Positions 47,460-58,726 of a stretch of 64,000 bases of DNA are shown here, piece by piece (the first letter of the stretch is position 1; each line of letters opens with the position of its first letter). The notes below the pieces were generated by a model, which did no database searches, was not told the DNA's origin, and saw only the letters and a list, made by a program, of their open reading frames with translations. The stretch covers positions 124,001 to 188,000 of the forward strand of contig JAEINS010000003.1 of NCBI GenBank assembly GCA_016342755.1. Direction: 5' to 3'. This DNA is from Melioribacteraceae bacterium. GTDB taxonomy: Bacteria > Bacteroidota > Ignavibacteria > Ignavibacteriales > Melioribacteraceae. The position numbers were made by a program, and so were the translations under genes.

Positions 47460-48905
47460 TTATTTTGTTAACAAATTTCCATGATAATCAGGTGAATATA
47501 TTTTTCCTCTATCTACTATTTTACGGCCTCTTAAAAACACTTCTGAGATTGATGATTTCAGTTCTATACCATTAAACGGTGTATATTTACCCTTGCAAAG
47601 CATTTCTTTCGAGTTTATTTTTTGGTTTTTATACAGATCAACTAAAGTAATATCCGCATCAAACCCTTTTAATATCGTGCCTTTATCAGTAAGCCCAAAT
47701 ATTTCGGCAACACCGGCTGATAAAAGATGAACCGTTGTCTGAAGATCAATTTTTCCTTTAAAGAACCCTTCGCTCAACATATAATTTACTCTATGCTGAA
47801 CTCCGGGAATTCCGCCATAAACTTCCCAGAAATCATCTGATATTTTTTCCTTTAATGGATCACATCCCGCATGATCAGTAGTTACAAATGAAATAGTTCC
47901 GTCTTTAAGTCCATTCCATAAGGCATCTCTATCAGTTTCAAACTTTACTGGCGGAGCGGTTTTTAGAAGTTTTGTAATTTTAGGATCATCAAAATCTATT
48001 TGTGTAAACTGTAAATAATGAGGACAAGTTTCTGTGGTAACTCTGACACCCTGTTTCTGAGCTTTCCTAATCAGACCTAATCCAAGCGCTGAACTTAGAT
48101 GAACAATATGAATATGACAACCGGTTTCGGCAGCTATATTTATTACATTGAATACAGCTTTCGCTTCAGCCTGATCATCTCTGGCACCGCAATAAGCTCC
48201 CCAGTCACTTTTTAAGTTCATCCTCGCAGACTTTTCTCTGTCTGTTACCAACTTCTTATCTTCGGCATGAACCGCAAGAATTGAATTATTTTCTTTCACT
48301 ACCTGAGCGGCAATTTTAATCTGTTCATAAGTCAGATCAGTAAAAGACTGCATACCAGAAATTGTATAAACTTTGAATCCGGCAACGCCTGATTCACATA
48401 ATTCTTTAACTTGTTTTTTTAATTTGTTAATCTCTTCAAAATCATTCCCGGAAATTCCGCCCCAGAATTTGTAATCAATAAAGGCTTTACCGGATAAAGC
48501 TTTTTGTTTTATACTAAAATTTTCCTTAGAAGTAACCGGAGGAATCGAGGTACAGGGCATATCAAAAATTGTTGTAGTTCCGCCGACTGCGGCAGATTTG
48601 CTGGCATATTCGAATTCATCTCTAAACTCAAACCCGGGAGTATTAAAATGTACATGTGCATCAATTGCTCCAGGTATAGCTAGCTTAAACCCGCCATCAA
48701 AAACTTGAATACTCTCAGAATAATTTTTGCTTTCAACTTGACTTATAAATAAATCAAACTGTTCTTTGTTTTCAATTTCCAGCCAATCAATTTCCTTATT
48801 AAATGCGGGCTCTACACTTGTTATCCTTTCATCAAAATAGATATCAACTAATTGAAGTTTGTTAAATCTAGTAGATATTAAAACATTTTTAATCACTTTC
48901 TGCAT
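47460..48905 (-). CDS. hyuA: Allantoinase/dihydropyrimidinase-type cyclic amidohydrolase (HyuA-like)
   Basis: This 481-residue cyclic-amide hydrolase has metal ligands H84 and H86 in IDAHVHFNTPG, a carbamylatable Lys in SGVAGFKVYTISGM, LAVHAED, HIHIVHLSSA, TTETCPHYLQF and the catalytic Asp in FVTTDHAGCD. The motifs are nearer to allantoinase than to D-hydantoinase. About 25 extra residues lie between the N-terminal beta domain strands (roughly 35-65). In the island it would hydrolyse a five- or six-membered ureide ring; allantoin, a hydantoin or a reduced purine product are candidates. It is contiguous with ssnA and the PLP-enzyme gene. Confidence 0.9.
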   Translation of the reverse strand: MQKVIKNVLISTRFNKLQLVDIYFDERITSVEPAFNKEIDWLEIENKEQFDLFISQVESKNYSESIQVFDGGFKLAIPGAIDAHVHFNTPGFEFRDEFEYASKSAAVGGTTTIFDMPCTSIPPVTSKENFSIKQKALSGKAFIDYKFWGGISGNDFEEINKLKKQVKELCESGVAGFKVYTISGMQSFTDLTYEQIKIAAQVVKENNSILAVHAEDKKLVTDREKSARMNLKSDWGAYCGARDDQAEAKAVFNVINIAAETGCHIHIVHLSSALGLGLIRKAQKQGVRVTTETCPHYLQFTQIDFDDPKITKLLKTAPPVKFETDRDALWNGLKDGTISFVTTDHAGCDPLKEKISDDFWEVYGGIPGVQHRVNYMLSEGFFKGKIDLQTTVHLLSAGVAEIFGLTDKGTILKGFDADITLVDLYKNQKINSKEMLCKGKYTPFNGIELKSSISEVFLRGRKIVDRGKIYSPDYHGNLLTK

Positions 48906-52192: not shown

Positions 52193-52222
52193 ATTAACCA
52201 ACGGATTAATCCGTTGGTTAAT
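52193..52222. repeat. 30-nt perfect palindrome after trpB
   Basis: The arm ATTAACCAACGGATT is followed immediately by its exact reverse complement. It begins 13 bases after the trpB stop and lies between convergent units. It could be a terminator stem without the usual T run or a dispersed palindromic repeat. Confidence 0.75.
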
Positions 52223-53425: not shown

Positions 53426-56314
53426 CTATTTAAGTATCATTAATTTTTTACTTGCAGAAAAATTACCAGTTTCAAGCTTGTAAATATAAATTCCGCTCGC
53501 AAAATCTGAAGCATCAAAAGTAACATGATAATTACCCGATGTCTGTACTTTATCTACAAGTGTTTTTATTTTTTGTCCAAGCATATTGTAAATATTTAAT
53601 TTTACAGTCGATGCATTCATTGATTCTGCTATTGGAATAGAATATTCTATAACCGTTGTTGGATTAAACGGATTTGGATAATTTTGATAAAGTACATATT
53701 TACCCGGAATTTCATCCGCATTTGTAATGCTTGTAACTGTGTCTATAATGGAAAATACATTTTCGCTAATGCTTTTTATTGATGAAGAAGATTCGCTTGT
53801 AATCTGAATTTTGTAATTCTCTCTGGCAATTAAATCCTCCGGCAAATTCCATGAATAAGCCTGAAATACAGCAGAAACTGTATCTAAAGAAAAGATATTA
53901 TTGTTATCATTTATCAGATCAATATGAACATTTTCAAGAATATTAGTTTCCCATCTAATTACTTCCAAACTTCCATTTGCCCAGACTTCACCGCCGTTTG
54001 GCGAAATTATTTTTACATAAGGATCAGTTATGTTAAAACTGTAAATATCAGACCATTCACTTTCTTCAGAACCTAATTCTGAATTAACACGCCAGTAATA
54101 TTTTGTGTTATTGGTTAATCCGGAAACCGCCAAATTTGAGAGATTTGTATTTGTTTCAGTAAAAATTGTAGAGAAAGTAGTATCTTCTGAGACCTGAACA
54201 TTAAAGGCATTATACATCCCTTTACCAGTCCATTTAACCAAAATTGAATCTTGCAGTACTAATTTCTGATTATTTAACGGCTCATATAGAATTGGAGAAT
54301 TACTTTTTAGGCTATCCTTAGAAACTCCAAACACAATTTCTCCAAAACTGTCTAAAACGACAATTAGTTCATTTTTATCACTATCATATATTGTTGATTT
54401 AGGAACAAATAATCCTTGATTTGGGAATTCGCGAAAACAAACAATTGTATTTACCGGATTTTTTATTTCAGGATAATATTCCAAATCAATATGAAATTCA
54501 GCATTTTGCGAGTTAATTGCAAAACCTTCATAAACTATAGAAACCGGATTTACAGAAATTATAATATCAATAAACTGAGGCTTAACCGGTCCGTATGGCA
54601 GTCGTGTAATTTTTGATTCATTATAATCAGCAGCACCTAAACCATTATATTTTATTTCAATTCCGGTCTTAATCGATTCATTATTAAAAGAATAAGTATT
54701 TCCTTCTTTTACTTCAAAATTTGTAAAACTTGGTTTTTTAACCGATTTATTCCAAGGCAGTTTAGTAGCTCTGTAAGCCAAAATTCCGTTTGGTAACGAA
54801 ATTTCTAGCGCAATTGTTCCATCAGGATGAACTTCTACAACATTCCGTTTAACAAATTGCGGATTTGGAACACCATAACCAATAAACCATCCACCGTTAG
54901 GAAGAGGTTCAGCATTACCGGCCGTAACGCAGAAAATATTTCCTTCAGGATATCTCCAATCAGAAACCAATGTTGCAATTTTATTTTCTTCATCTATTGC
55001 ATATTCTACCGCTCTTGAGTAAGGAGGCTGATGGAATTGACCGTTATCAAACATAGTAATATTTCCATTTGGCCGTCTTCTAATATTATGCTGACGTGAA
55101 TGATAAAAAGGTGCATTTTCTTCATGTTCGCCAACATAAGTAAATTCGCCGTGCAGTCCGCCCATTCTCCAGATAACTTCACCGGTTTCTCTGCTTATTT
55201 TCATTATTTCACTATGATTACGGAAAGAAGCTAAAATATTGCCATCGTCATCAATATCAAAAGCATTTAATGTTCCATAATTAATACGCGAATCTGTTAA
55301 AGCCAGATCTGTATCGGTAATAGGAATATAATCTATATTACGCCATTCAAACACAACATTTTTATCTTTGTCCTGTTCCTGAATTATATTTATAACTAAT
55401 TCTGTATCAGTTTTACCGCCTTCAATAATTTTACTCATATCATAAATAATAGTATGATAAGACATCATTATAGCATGACCGTTTGGAAGCAGCTTAAATT
55501 CGTGAAAATCTGTAGTATAACCGTTTTTCATTTTGAACGAATCAACAACAGTTAAATCTGAATTTAGAACAATATGCCTAAGATCTTCACCAGGTAAAGG
55601 TACATTTACAGAAAAATCGCCAAGAGCATAAGATAAAAGTCCGTTTTGCTGAACCTGGAAATCAAAAGGAGCTCCATTTACTCTTACCGAATCTAGTATA
55701 ACTCCGCTGCTGTCGAGTATAAAAATAAAATTCCCAAATTTAGCAGGAACATTACGATCCCATGTAGCCATAAAAATATTTCCGGAGCCCGGATTATCAA
55801 TTGAGTTAATTGTTATTTCGGGAGCCGGAAGTAATAAACTATTTGTATTTTTATGTAATACCGCCGAAAATTCATTTTCTATTTCAGAAAGATCATCATT
55901 TATTGAAGCATTTCTTAGTTGCGGAATGCCGGAAGAAATTGTCTTAAAACTGTAATTAAGTCCGGGTATGTATTTCCCGGAATCTGTTTTAATTCCTGCT
56001 AAAATTTCGACATTTACTTCTTCTTCATATGCAAATGGAACATTAGGATTAAATAGAATTGTTCTGCCGTCTTCTGCTAAAATTACTTTTCCAGCATGAA
56101 TTCCGCTTTTTACACCTTCAACTTTAAATAATTCAGCAGACAAAGTTGTTTGGTCAATTGTGCCTGTATAACGCAGAATTATATTTGTCTGGTTTGAAAC
56201 CATTATTGAAGATGGTTTTGGACTAATAAATTTGTATGGAATATTCTCTTGTGCTACCAGATTAGTAACTAAAAGAACACAAAAACTAATCAATAAAATC
56301 CTTGTGAATTTCAT
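53426..56314 (-). CDS. Secreted arylsulfotransferase-family protein with type IX sorting domain (A)
   Basis: This 962-residue protein has a signal peptide (ILLISFCVLLVTNLVAQ), an N-terminal Ig-like domain (about 30-125), an ASST beta-propeller-like domain (about 165-530; RINYGTLNAFDIDDDGNILA, EVIWRMGGLHGEF, YHSRQHNIRRRPNGNITMFD), FN3/Ig-like domains, and a T9SS type A domain (YQNYPNPFNPTTVIEYSIP to the end, KKLMILK). ASST enzymes move sulfate between phenols. An AGGAG site lies 8 bases before the ATG and TAACTTTG (56355-56348) gives a perfect -7 element. The sorting domain implies export and surface attachment. Real sulfotransferase activity is not shown. Confidence 0.82.
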   Translation of the reverse strand: MKFTRILLISFCVLLVTNLVAQENIPYKFISPKPSSIMVSNQTNIILRYTGTIDQTTLSAELFKVEGVKSGIHAGKVILAEDGRTILFNPNVPFAYEEEVNVEILAGIKTDSGKYIPGLNYSFKTISSGIPQLRNASINDDLSEIENEFSAVLHKNTNSLLLPAPEITINSIDNPGSGNIFMATWDRNVPAKFGNFIFILDSSGVILDSVRVNGAPFDFQVQQNGLLSYALGDFSVNVPLPGEDLRHIVLNSDLTVVDSFKMKNGYTTDFHEFKLLPNGHAIMMSYHTIIYDMSKIIEGGKTDTELVINIIQEQDKDKNVVFEWRNIDYIPITDTDLALTDSRINYGTLNAFDIDDDGNILASFRNHSEIMKISRETGEVIWRMGGLHGEFTYVGEHEENAPFYHSRQHNIRRRPNGNITMFDNGQFHQPPYSRAVEYAIDEENKIATLVSDWRYPEGNIFCVTAGNAEPLPNGGWFIGYGVPNPQFVKRNVVEVHPDGTIALEISLPNGILAYRATKLPWNKSVKKPSFTNFEVKEGNTYSFNNESIKTGIEIKYNGLGAADYNESKITRLPYGPVKPQFIDIIISVNPVSIVYEGFAINSQNAEFHIDLEYYPEIKNPVNTIVCFREFPNQGLFVPKSTIYDSDKNELIVVLDSFGEIVFGVSKDSLKSNSPILYEPLNNQKLVLQDSILVKWTGKGMYNAFNVQVSEDTTFSTIFTETNTNLSNLAVSGLTNNTKYYWRVNSELGSEESEWSDIYSFNITDPYVKIISPNGGEVWANGSLEVIRWETNILENVHIDLINDNNNIFSLDTVSAVFQAYSWNLPEDLIARENYKIQITSESSSSIKSISENVFSIIDTVTSITNADEIPGKYVLYQNYPNPFNPTTVIEYSIPIAESMNASTVKLNIYNMLGQKIKTLVDKVQTSGNYHVTFDASDFASGIYIYKLETGNFSASKKLMILK
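53603..53630 (-). repeat. Diverged copy of the palindromic repeat in the sorting domain of protein A
   Basis: The segment coding AESMNAST lies at exactly the position where protein B has a near-perfect palindrome and agrees with it at 18 of 28 bases. It keeps only partial dyad symmetry. Common origin is inferred. Confidence 0.4.
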
Positions 56315-56399: not shown

Positions 56400-58610
56400 C
56401 TATTTAATTAATAACATTTTTTTCGAAACTGAATATTCTTCATAATTTAACTGATAAATATAAATTCCGCTTGCCAAATAAGAGGCATCAAATTCAATTT
56501 TATAATTGCCAGGTTTCTGATATTCATTTACAAGTGTTTTAATTTTTCTGCCTAGAATATCAAAAAGTTCTAACCGTAGAGACGAGGCATGCCTAGTCTC
56601 TACATTTGGTAATGTATATTCAATTGTAGTTGCCGGATTAAACGGATTTGGATAATTTTGCTTTAAATTAAATTCCATTATACTTTCAGTTTCAGAAACT
56701 GCCGTACCCTGACTCTTCTTTAAACTGATATTATTTAAAGTTATGTCATCAGAAGCTGCTCCAAGCTGGAAATACAAATTAGTCTCATAATCAGTTTTGT
56801 CATTCATTTTAAATTCAAACCCGTAATGTTTTTTTACCTTTTCAAGCAAAACAGTTCCAATTTTTGCATAATCTACGGAAGCAGATCCTAATTTAATTTT
56901 TATTAAACTATTTTCTTCAGCCGTTGCGTCAAATTCAAAAATATAATTTACATCATTAATTAGTGTTATATTTTCCTGAGTTAAAAGAATGTCCAGATAA
57001 TTAGAAACTGTTTTTTCAATATTGATAGTTAAACCATTATCATCAAACAAATTAGTAATATTTTTTGCCGAATCAGATTCAAAATTCCAATAATTTAACT
57101 TTTCAGAAAAATCTCCATTTTTCACCAAATTACTTTCAGAATCAAATCCGCTTAAATATATTTCTACAATATTCGATTTCGCGCTTTCATTTCCCTCAAA
57201 ATTAACAGCCGTTACGGCAAAACTATATTTTCCGGGTGTATCAATTTTGTTAATATTGTAAAATGGATTGTTGGATTTATCTAATAGATTAAACTGATTT
57301 TCATCATTTTTTGTATAAATATTATATGAATCAACTTTTTTATCACCAAACTTATTGAATAAAAGTGTTAAACGATCAGCAAAAGGTTCAACAATTAAAT
57401 AAGGTTTATCAGCAATTCCGCTCCATTTATAACGATGAGTTCTATAACTATTATAATCTTCATCAAAGCCGGCTTCATAAACAATATTGCCTTCCGGTTC
57501 AACTTCTGTAGCAGCCGGATCTGTTGTATTTGCCCAGTTTATTAGCGTATTTCCATTCTGCAATCTTTGTGTGCTTCCCATTAAACTTGTAAAAATATCC
57601 GGTTTTGCTCTATATTCCCAAACTTTTTTGGCTGTCATGTTCTCAGAATCAATTATATATTCAACTGATCTGGAAAATTTTGGATTTCGTAAGTTACCGT
57701 TATCAAGCATTAAATAATGTCCCGGTTTTCCATCAACAGGTCTTACATCATGCTGATAGGAAAATGTAATATCATCATCAATAAGAAACTGATTATTTTT
57801 CCCGCCAAATCTCCAGATAATATTACCGGTTTGTCTGTCTATTTTAGTAACTTCCGATAAATGTCTGCTAGAAATTATAATATTGGAATCATAATCAACC
57901 GCAATTGAGTTAATATGAACATAATCAATTTTTGATGAAGTTAAACTTTGCCCTTCAGAATCAAAAACATCAAAATGATCGGAGGTTTTCCATTCAAGTA
58001 CTAAATTATGATCTTTATCATATTCCTGAAAAACATTCTCCAAAATTATTGCCTCTGATTTCCCGCCATCAATCAACTCACTCATATCAACAATTCTATA
58101 ATCATCGCAAATTACAAAATAGTTGCCATTTTCCAGAATTGTAATTTCATGAAAATCTGTATTATAACCTGTAGTACATCTAAATGTATCAACAGCGTTA
58201 AAATTTGAGTCTAATCCAATAAATCCATAAACATCTTCGCCCAGCCAATAAGTAAGTATATTATTTGGATGAAGTTTTAGATCACCGCCAATATTATCCA
58301 TTTCTTTATAAAAGTAGGGTGTTCCGTCATTTTTATAGATCAGCAAAAAAGTGTTATCCGTTCTGCCGTTTATTAAAAACAGCTTTTTATCCGAGGCCAG
58401 ATTTGAATTGATTGAAGGATTAAAATTTGGGAAATAACTGGGAACTGAAACTCCGTTTATTACCCTGATTGAATTTTCGGTTTTAAGAGTTTTATTTAGC
58501 TCCGGGTCAAAAAAACTCTCATTTTGCGATAAGTTTGTCTTTGTAATTAAAAAGGTTAATAAAAGTGCCCAAATTATTTTTTGGCTCAATCTACCAAACT
58601 GTATTTGCAT
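56400..58610 (-). CDS. Secreted arylsulfotransferase-family protein with type IX sorting domain (B)
   Basis: This paralogue of the neighbouring gene has about 736 residues from ATG 58610 (an in-frame ATG at 58628 is possible). It has a signal peptide (IIWALLLTFLITKTNLSQ), an ASST-like domain (TGYNTDFHEITILENGNYFV, HINSIAVDYDSNIIISSRHL, RQTGNIIWRFGGKNNQF, FSYQHDVRPVDG, GNTLINWANT), a carbohydrate-binding-like beta domain near 510-640, and a T9SS domain from KQNYPNPFNPATTIEYTLP to KKMLLIK. It lacks protein A's first Ig domain. The two genes are 85 bases apart and arose by duplication or joint transfer. Substrate unknown. Confidence 0.82.
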   Translation of the reverse strand: MQIQFGRLSQKIIWALLLTFLITKTNLSQNESFFDPELNKTLKTENSIRVINGVSVPSYFPNFNPSINSNLASDKKLFLINGRTDNTFLLIYKNDGTPYFYKEMDNIGGDLKLHPNNILTYWLGEDVYGFIGLDSNFNAVDTFRCTTGYNTDFHEITILENGNYFVICDDYRIVDMSELIDGGKSEAIILENVFQEYDKDHNLVLEWKTSDHFDVFDSEGQSLTSSKIDYVHINSIAVDYDSNIIISSRHLSEVTKIDRQTGNIIWRFGGKNNQFLIDDDITFSYQHDVRPVDGKPGHYLMLDNGNLRNPKFSRSVEYIIDSENMTAKKVWEYRAKPDIFTSLMGSTQRLQNGNTLINWANTTDPAATEVEPEGNIVYEAGFDEDYNSYRTHRYKWSGIADKPYLIVEPFADRLTLLFNKFGDKKVDSYNIYTKNDENQFNLLDKSNNPFYNINKIDTPGKYSFAVTAVNFEGNESAKSNIVEIYLSGFDSESNLVKNGDFSEKLNYWNFESDSAKNITNLFDDNGLTINIEKTVSNYLDILLTQENITLINDVNYIFEFDATAEENSLIKIKLGSASVDYAKIGTVLLEKVKKHYGFEFKMNDKTDYETNLYFQLGAASDDITLNNISLKKSQGTAVSETESIMEFNLKQNYPNPFNPATTIEYTLPNVETRHASSLRLELFDILGRKIKTLVNEYQKPGNYKIEFDASYLASGIYIYQLNYEEYSVSKKMLLIK
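56576..56603. repeat. 28-nt inverted repeat inserted in frame in a sorting domain
   Basis: GTAGAGACGAGGCA is followed by TGCCTAGTCTCTAC, its reverse complement with one mismatch. On the coding strand it adds VETRHASSL in the loop between the first two strands of the T9SS domain, where typical domains are about five residues shorter. It has the look of a mobile palindromic element. Confidence 0.7.
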
Positions 58611-58726
58611 GAATATCTGATAATCCATAATTATATAAAAATTATTCTAAAGATAGAATAATTATGTTTAATATATAAGTACAAAATTTATAGTACAGAG
58701 ATTCTAATGCCGCAAATTTCTTTTAA

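Follow-up and report, generated by a model that had tools for sequence, protein, structure and literature searches.

REP-type palindromes recur in a loop of the type IX secretion sorting domain across a bacterial class

The REPs of TnpA_REP subclass 2.4 carry a 'double foot', GT[AG]G...C[TC]AC, and also sit inside the tnpAREP gene itself, where they leave the frame unbroken and lie between HuH and Y (Quentin et al., 2018; PMC6006769). The TnpA_REP enzymes tested so far, which represent other subclasses than the one concerned here, bind and cleave single-stranded REPs, and the GTAG foot takes part in recognition or in the choice of the cleavage site (PMC8266576). Intragenic GTAG and CGTC REPs have been described that lie entirely within ORFs and may be selectively neutral when they fall in a loop or linker (Di Nocera et al., 2013; PMC3733652). 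The Rickettsia palindromic elements (RPEs) measure ~150 nt and are located in unrelated genes (PMC10969869), while the short palindromes of Rickettsia carry a CGTC tag (PMC3733652).

In this study, we analyzed a stretch of 64,000 nucleotides (the window) from the genome of a member of the Melioribacteraceae. It encodes protein B (56400..58628, minus strand), a secreted protein of 742 amino acids resembling arylsulfotransferases (ASST; PF14269, E=2e-28) that ends in a type IX secretion C-terminal sorting domain (CTD; 56403..56654, minus strand; PF18962, E=3.4e-9; TIGR04183, E=1.6e-9). The C-terminus exceeds the curated cut-off for a T9SS type A sorting domain. Within this domain, a palindrome of 28 nt (56576..56603, minus strand; window sequence GTAGAGACGAGGCATGCCTAGTCTCTAC) has 13 of 14 complementary pairs and reads on the minus strand as GTA GAG ACT AGG CAT GCC TCG TCT CTA C, coding for VETRHASSL at residues 676-684; the single mismatched pair falls in a synonymous Thr codon. 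This agrees, coordinates included, with the in-frame inverted repeat that an earlier note on this DNA had proposed. Two phases of the palindrome are open, i.e., VETRHASSL (on either strand) and RDEACLVS, and the third runs into a TAG stop. The whole window contains two 28-nt palindromes that have no gap and no more than one mismatched pair, where base composition predicts 0.04. The other one (52194-52221) is a perfect palindrome, TTAACCAACGGATTAATCCGTTGGTTAA, directly after a trpB-like gene; it belongs to a separate repeat family, of which the genome contains three further, diverged copies.

According to an AlphaFold model (pLDDT 78), the CTD is a sandwich of seven strands whose fold matches include the T9SS CTD structures 8qb1 and 8glk. 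VETRHASSL occupies the first hairpin loop (beta1-beta2) of the domain, covering loop positions 35-42 of the modelled segment and the first residues of the strand that follows (43-45, SSL). The neighboring ASST-like paralogue, protein A (53426..56314, minus strand; 962 amino acids), has a CTD loop of 11 amino acids that contains a decayed relative of the palindrome (53602..53629, minus strand; peptide AESMNASTV), with 18 of 28 bases identical and 8 of 14 pairs retained, a similarity reached by none of 300 shuffled loops. The diverged equivalent that the earlier note saw in protein A is thus real, with its 18 of 28 bases, although its register has to be shifted by one base from 53603-53630.

The palindrome is one of a dispersed set. 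Twelve related copies are present in the genome at up to three mismatches and 14 with a looser pattern, while the reversed pattern has no match in the same genome. Ten of these 14 copies are intergenic, defined as having no open frame of at least 120 amino acids across the copy; two lie in frame in CTDs (VETRHASSL in protein B and VEAGHASSL in an 835-amino-acid frame of contig C48), one in a truncated CTD relic downstream of the C48 gene, and one inside the gene of a REP-associated tyrosine transposase (RAYT). GTAG...CTAC ends are shared by 13 of the 14, and the flanks of the copies that were compared contain no longer shared repeat apart from the duplicated domains. The arm is therefore not unique in the genome, and the notion that the element is palindromic, dispersed and able to enter coding frames holds. 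A copy number of 14 is low for a REP and below that of typical REP families. Elsewhere in the assembly, long intergenic repeats form a tandem array with spurious-looking ORFs (L077 4242-5321, G000:C34; FFMRDLFLKIPQSLRSFGMTNY...).

The RAYT gene (C20:48417-48983) looks intact and is embedded in a palindrome - RAYT gene - palindrome layout (C20:48353-49088), its flanking palindromes at 48353 and 49061 being two of the ten intergenic copies. A third palindrome lies in frame inside the gene (C20:48729-48756, peptide VETGHAPSL), after the PDHFH of the HUH domain and before the Y motif. When compared to the subclass 2.4 motifs NH[IFV]H, WQ and YIxNNP, the protein has WQ and the near matches DHFH and YISQNP. 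Its match to REP_Tyr_transpos (NF047646; E=3.9e-16, 59 bits) stays under the curated cut-off of 80, and its modelled fold resembles TnpA of IS608 and ISDra2 as well as the E. coli TnpA_REP-REP complex 4er8. The palindrome maps in this model to a low-confidence stretch between strand 81-88 and helix 121-139. The majority of 29 RAYT relatives examined in the class likewise contain a palindrome in frame at this position; the cores differ and two phases are used. Two RAYT genes seemingly between the same neighbors in two species of one genus (L293, G093:C2; L092, G145:C41) have internal palindromes of different sequence and phase, so that either the internal REP appears to have been turned over or the whole RAYT gene replaced.

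Based on the published description of in-frame REPs in tnpAREP, the palindrome of protein B can be identified as a double-foot GTAG REP residing in a coding sequence, most likely mobilized by a RAYT. Similar to subclass 2.4 REPs, it is a near-perfect palindrome with GTAG/CTAC ends that flanks an HUH transposase gene, lies in frame within that gene and is dispersed in multiple, mostly intergenic copies (10 of 14). The RAYT-internal copy had been considered as a novelty and was set aside, as such copies were already described (PMC6006769). What differs from the published REPs of this subclass is that the copies also recur in a sorting-domain loop across a bacterial class. Short tagged palindromes wholly within ORFs are shared with the REPs of Di Nocera et al. 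(2013), yet those are found in many genes, notably of DNA repair, whereas the present ones are concentrated in T9SS-exported domains and RAYTs. Like RPEs, the element is palindromic, lies in frame and adds a peptide to the protein. Yet, it is 28 nt long instead of ~150 nt, bears GTAG...CTAC instead of a CGTC tag and shows no sequence kinship with RPEs, and its in-frame copies, rather than being scattered over unrelated genes, are mainly confined to the CTD, a GFEIQR-type domain and the RAYT. Size, tag and target range hence rule out a Rickettsia-type element, and the kinship suggested in the earlier note gives way to a 28-nt double-foot REP with a resident RAYT that holds its own in-frame copy.

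In the window's genome, the loops of 53 CTDs, a non-random sample picked by similarity, fall into two length classes of 6-8 amino acids (34 of 53) and 10-13 amino acids (19 of 53), with none of nine, in line with the earlier remark that the loop of protein B is about five residues longer than typical. Since the net gain of five amino acids (15 nt) is smaller than the 28-nt palindrome, 'inserted' is shorthand here: the native loop was partly replaced or was later lost in part. The long loops are more palindrome-like than shuffled loops in 17 of 19 cases at p<=0.06, protein A included, and in 13 at p<0.01. As the DNA flanking the palindromes of protein B, the C48 gene and the C48 relic is 87% identical, these copies descend from one event followed by domain duplication; separate insertions within this genome are not supported by its clear CTD copies. 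Other palindrome types among the long loops (L065, GTAGGGACAAGTAGTGGCTTGTCCTTAC, 10 of 14 pairs; L064, 12 of 14 pairs) hint, by their sequences, at more than one arrival. A poorly resolved tree of the own-genome CTDs, comparing one with several origins, gave 15 changes versus 15.7 when shuffled.

A host benefit would be another reason for the palindrome to persist, as an mRNA hairpin near the 3' end of genes for secreted proteins, as a recombination point for CTD swapping or as a useful loop peptide. The placement of SSL, which opens the next strand in the structure model, would fit such a role, as would the relic downstream of the C48 gene (L076 3100-3215, G000:C48), in which similarity to the CTD of protein B ends ~15 nt beyond the palindrome, and a locus of a related genome (L335) where the palindrome replaces the loop at zero net change in length; in genome G019, moreover, palindromes are better conserved than their flanks. 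However, pairing is mostly lost among the long-loop copies of the window's genome, often down to 4-8 of 14 pairs, which is expected without selection, and most CTDs have no palindrome at all. The protein B orthologues in G073 and G198 do without it as well, having 6-amino-acid loops; at only 39-42% identity they are too distant to define the insertion target. We therefore regard a host benefit as quite improbable.

The earlier note mentioned VETRHASS-like inserts in other proteins of the group, and these are indeed present. A set of 163 distinct CTDs was assembled, drawn from the window's genome, other members of the family and a single marine MAG. In this set, 27 reach a palindrome score of at least 10, against none in ten rounds of protein-preserving synonymous recoding, and in 25 of the 27 the palindrome is centered in the loop; the CTDs were mostly picked by similarity to protein B, and hence 27 of 163 is not a base rate, while the comparison with recoding is independent of this selection. 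When 395 genomes from the phylum were searched for GTAGRG-N16-CYCTAC with the CTD motif after it, 36 places in 12 genomes matched, compared to none for the reversed control. True CTDs were recognized at 29 of the 30 loci that were read, all in this class, and the exception comes from the sole genome outside it. A separate contig scan with a strict CTD pattern added one case (L083). Of the inner eight pairs, which the pattern leaves unconstrained, 6.7 on average are complementary, a figure that drops to 3.1 once arms are exchanged among the sequences. The variable length of CTD loops as such might favor a chance palindrome or an ordinary variable loop, for which the probability is nonetheless negligible: it is ruled out by the exact motif being found in 0 of 100 shuffles, by the copies in the genome, by the empty reversed control and by the 27 versus 0 palindromic CTDs.

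The 20 distinct palindrome sequences recovered group into 13 clusters, so that, as judged from their sequences, about 13 palindrome types occupy the same CTD loop across the class. The palindromes within genes resemble the intergenic and RAYT copies of the genome in which they reside more than those found in other genomes (2.7 versus 5.7 mismatches, permutation p=0.007; seven genomes, hand-compiled sets). A RAYT is present in 18 of 23 genomes with the motif versus 84 of 174 others (Fisher p=0.008), an association that is in part circular, given that RAYTs themselves contain some of the copies, and five of the 23 have no RAYT match at E<=1e-10.

Residence in coding sequence extends beyond the first CTD loop. 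The second CTD loop harbors palindromes in G049 and G039 (FN-VETRHASSL-PSGVYFY and FN-VETRHGASL-HSGVYFY). Two CTDs of G049 (L091, G049:C87, 1501-1654; L303, 1014-1041) have two inserts each, one per loop and of different sequence types, the second insert of L303 being visible at the peptide level alone (VETRHASSL). A second recurrent target is the GFEIQR...W loop, which belongs to a different domain of secreted proteins and holds in-frame palindromes in G079 (L305 568-595, L311 1000-1027, L312 1014-1041) and G183 (L085 1501-1528); in G079 they match intergenic copies of the same genome exactly or almost exactly. Among 75 places with the exact pattern in eight genomes of the family, ten are in the first CTD loop, one in the second, three in GFEIQR-type loops and nine within RAYTs, the remainder being intergenic or at ORF edges. 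Rare in-frame palindromes of relatives within the class were also seen in a TrmH/SpoU-like methyltransferase gene (L101 1501-1528, G067:C46) and, in another phase, in a DNA methyltransferase-like gene (L088 1501-1528, G130:C90), both named by eye.

A single ancient CTD insertion could have been inherited and duplicated, with ends and phase fixed and cores renewed through compensatory substitutions or through gene conversion with the REP pool. Such a history would account for every CTD copy being in one phase and one loop although a second phase is open; the right arm supplying the strand start (SSL) may, on the structure model, also explain the single phase. It is also consistent with the one palindrome type that many CTDs have in common within each of G019, G106, G113 and G079, and with eleven copies in G019 that are 95.6% identical in the palindrome versus 81% in the flanks. 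We nevertheless deem it unlikely. The distance from the palindrome end to the [FY][DN] motif varies (5, 11, 17 or 20 nt), as does the net change in loop length, from 0 (L335) to about +9 amino acids as judged by eye, a spread from which neither a target duplication nor a fixed net length can be derived. Furthermore, two further sites are used (the second CTD loop and the GFEIQR...W loop), and most sampled CTDs of the window's genome have kept the short loop.

We consider it probable instead that a REP dispersed by a RAYT entered the CTD loop, spread by domain duplication and did so recurrently in relatives. A RAYT/TnpA_REP tyrosine transposase would disperse tiny, non-autonomous double-foot GTAG REPs, one of which would enter the beta1-beta2 loop of a T9SS CTD in the VETRHASSL phase and survive there since the loop is exposed and tolerant. 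Duplication of the CTD then copied the palindrome along, protein B keeping it while it decays in protein A and in the C48 descendants, and the same kind of element would reach the same loop repeatedly in related genomes. The mobilizing enzyme is presumably the C20 RAYT or a relative, and the different palindromes probably represent separate arrivals or replacements. We infer that the frequent hits on the loop reflect its tolerance and the abundance of CTDs (~150 per genome), and not the targeting of a particular sequence. A more speculative extension, which we hold to be rather doubtful, is that the CTD loop serves as a coding home for REPs, where palindromes are renewed out of the REP pool by a RAYT or by gene conversion and, for their part, promote the recombination and spread of CTDs.

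In summary, the new element is the recurrent residence of REPs in a sorting-domain loop across the class; our literature search found no report of REPs recurring in the loop of a protein-sorting domain. REPs are extragenic by name, yet here they repeatedly supply part of a domain that addresses proteins for export. As a caution for annotation, embedded REPs can make the loops of T9SS domains vary in length and can lower the HMM scores of some RAYTs. Ranging from intact to decayed, and with numerous palindromes sharing one homologous loop, these copies amount to a natural experiment in the conversion of transposon-derived DNA into protein sequence, and this system could reveal how RAYTs choose their targets and how diversity arises in large secreted-protein families.
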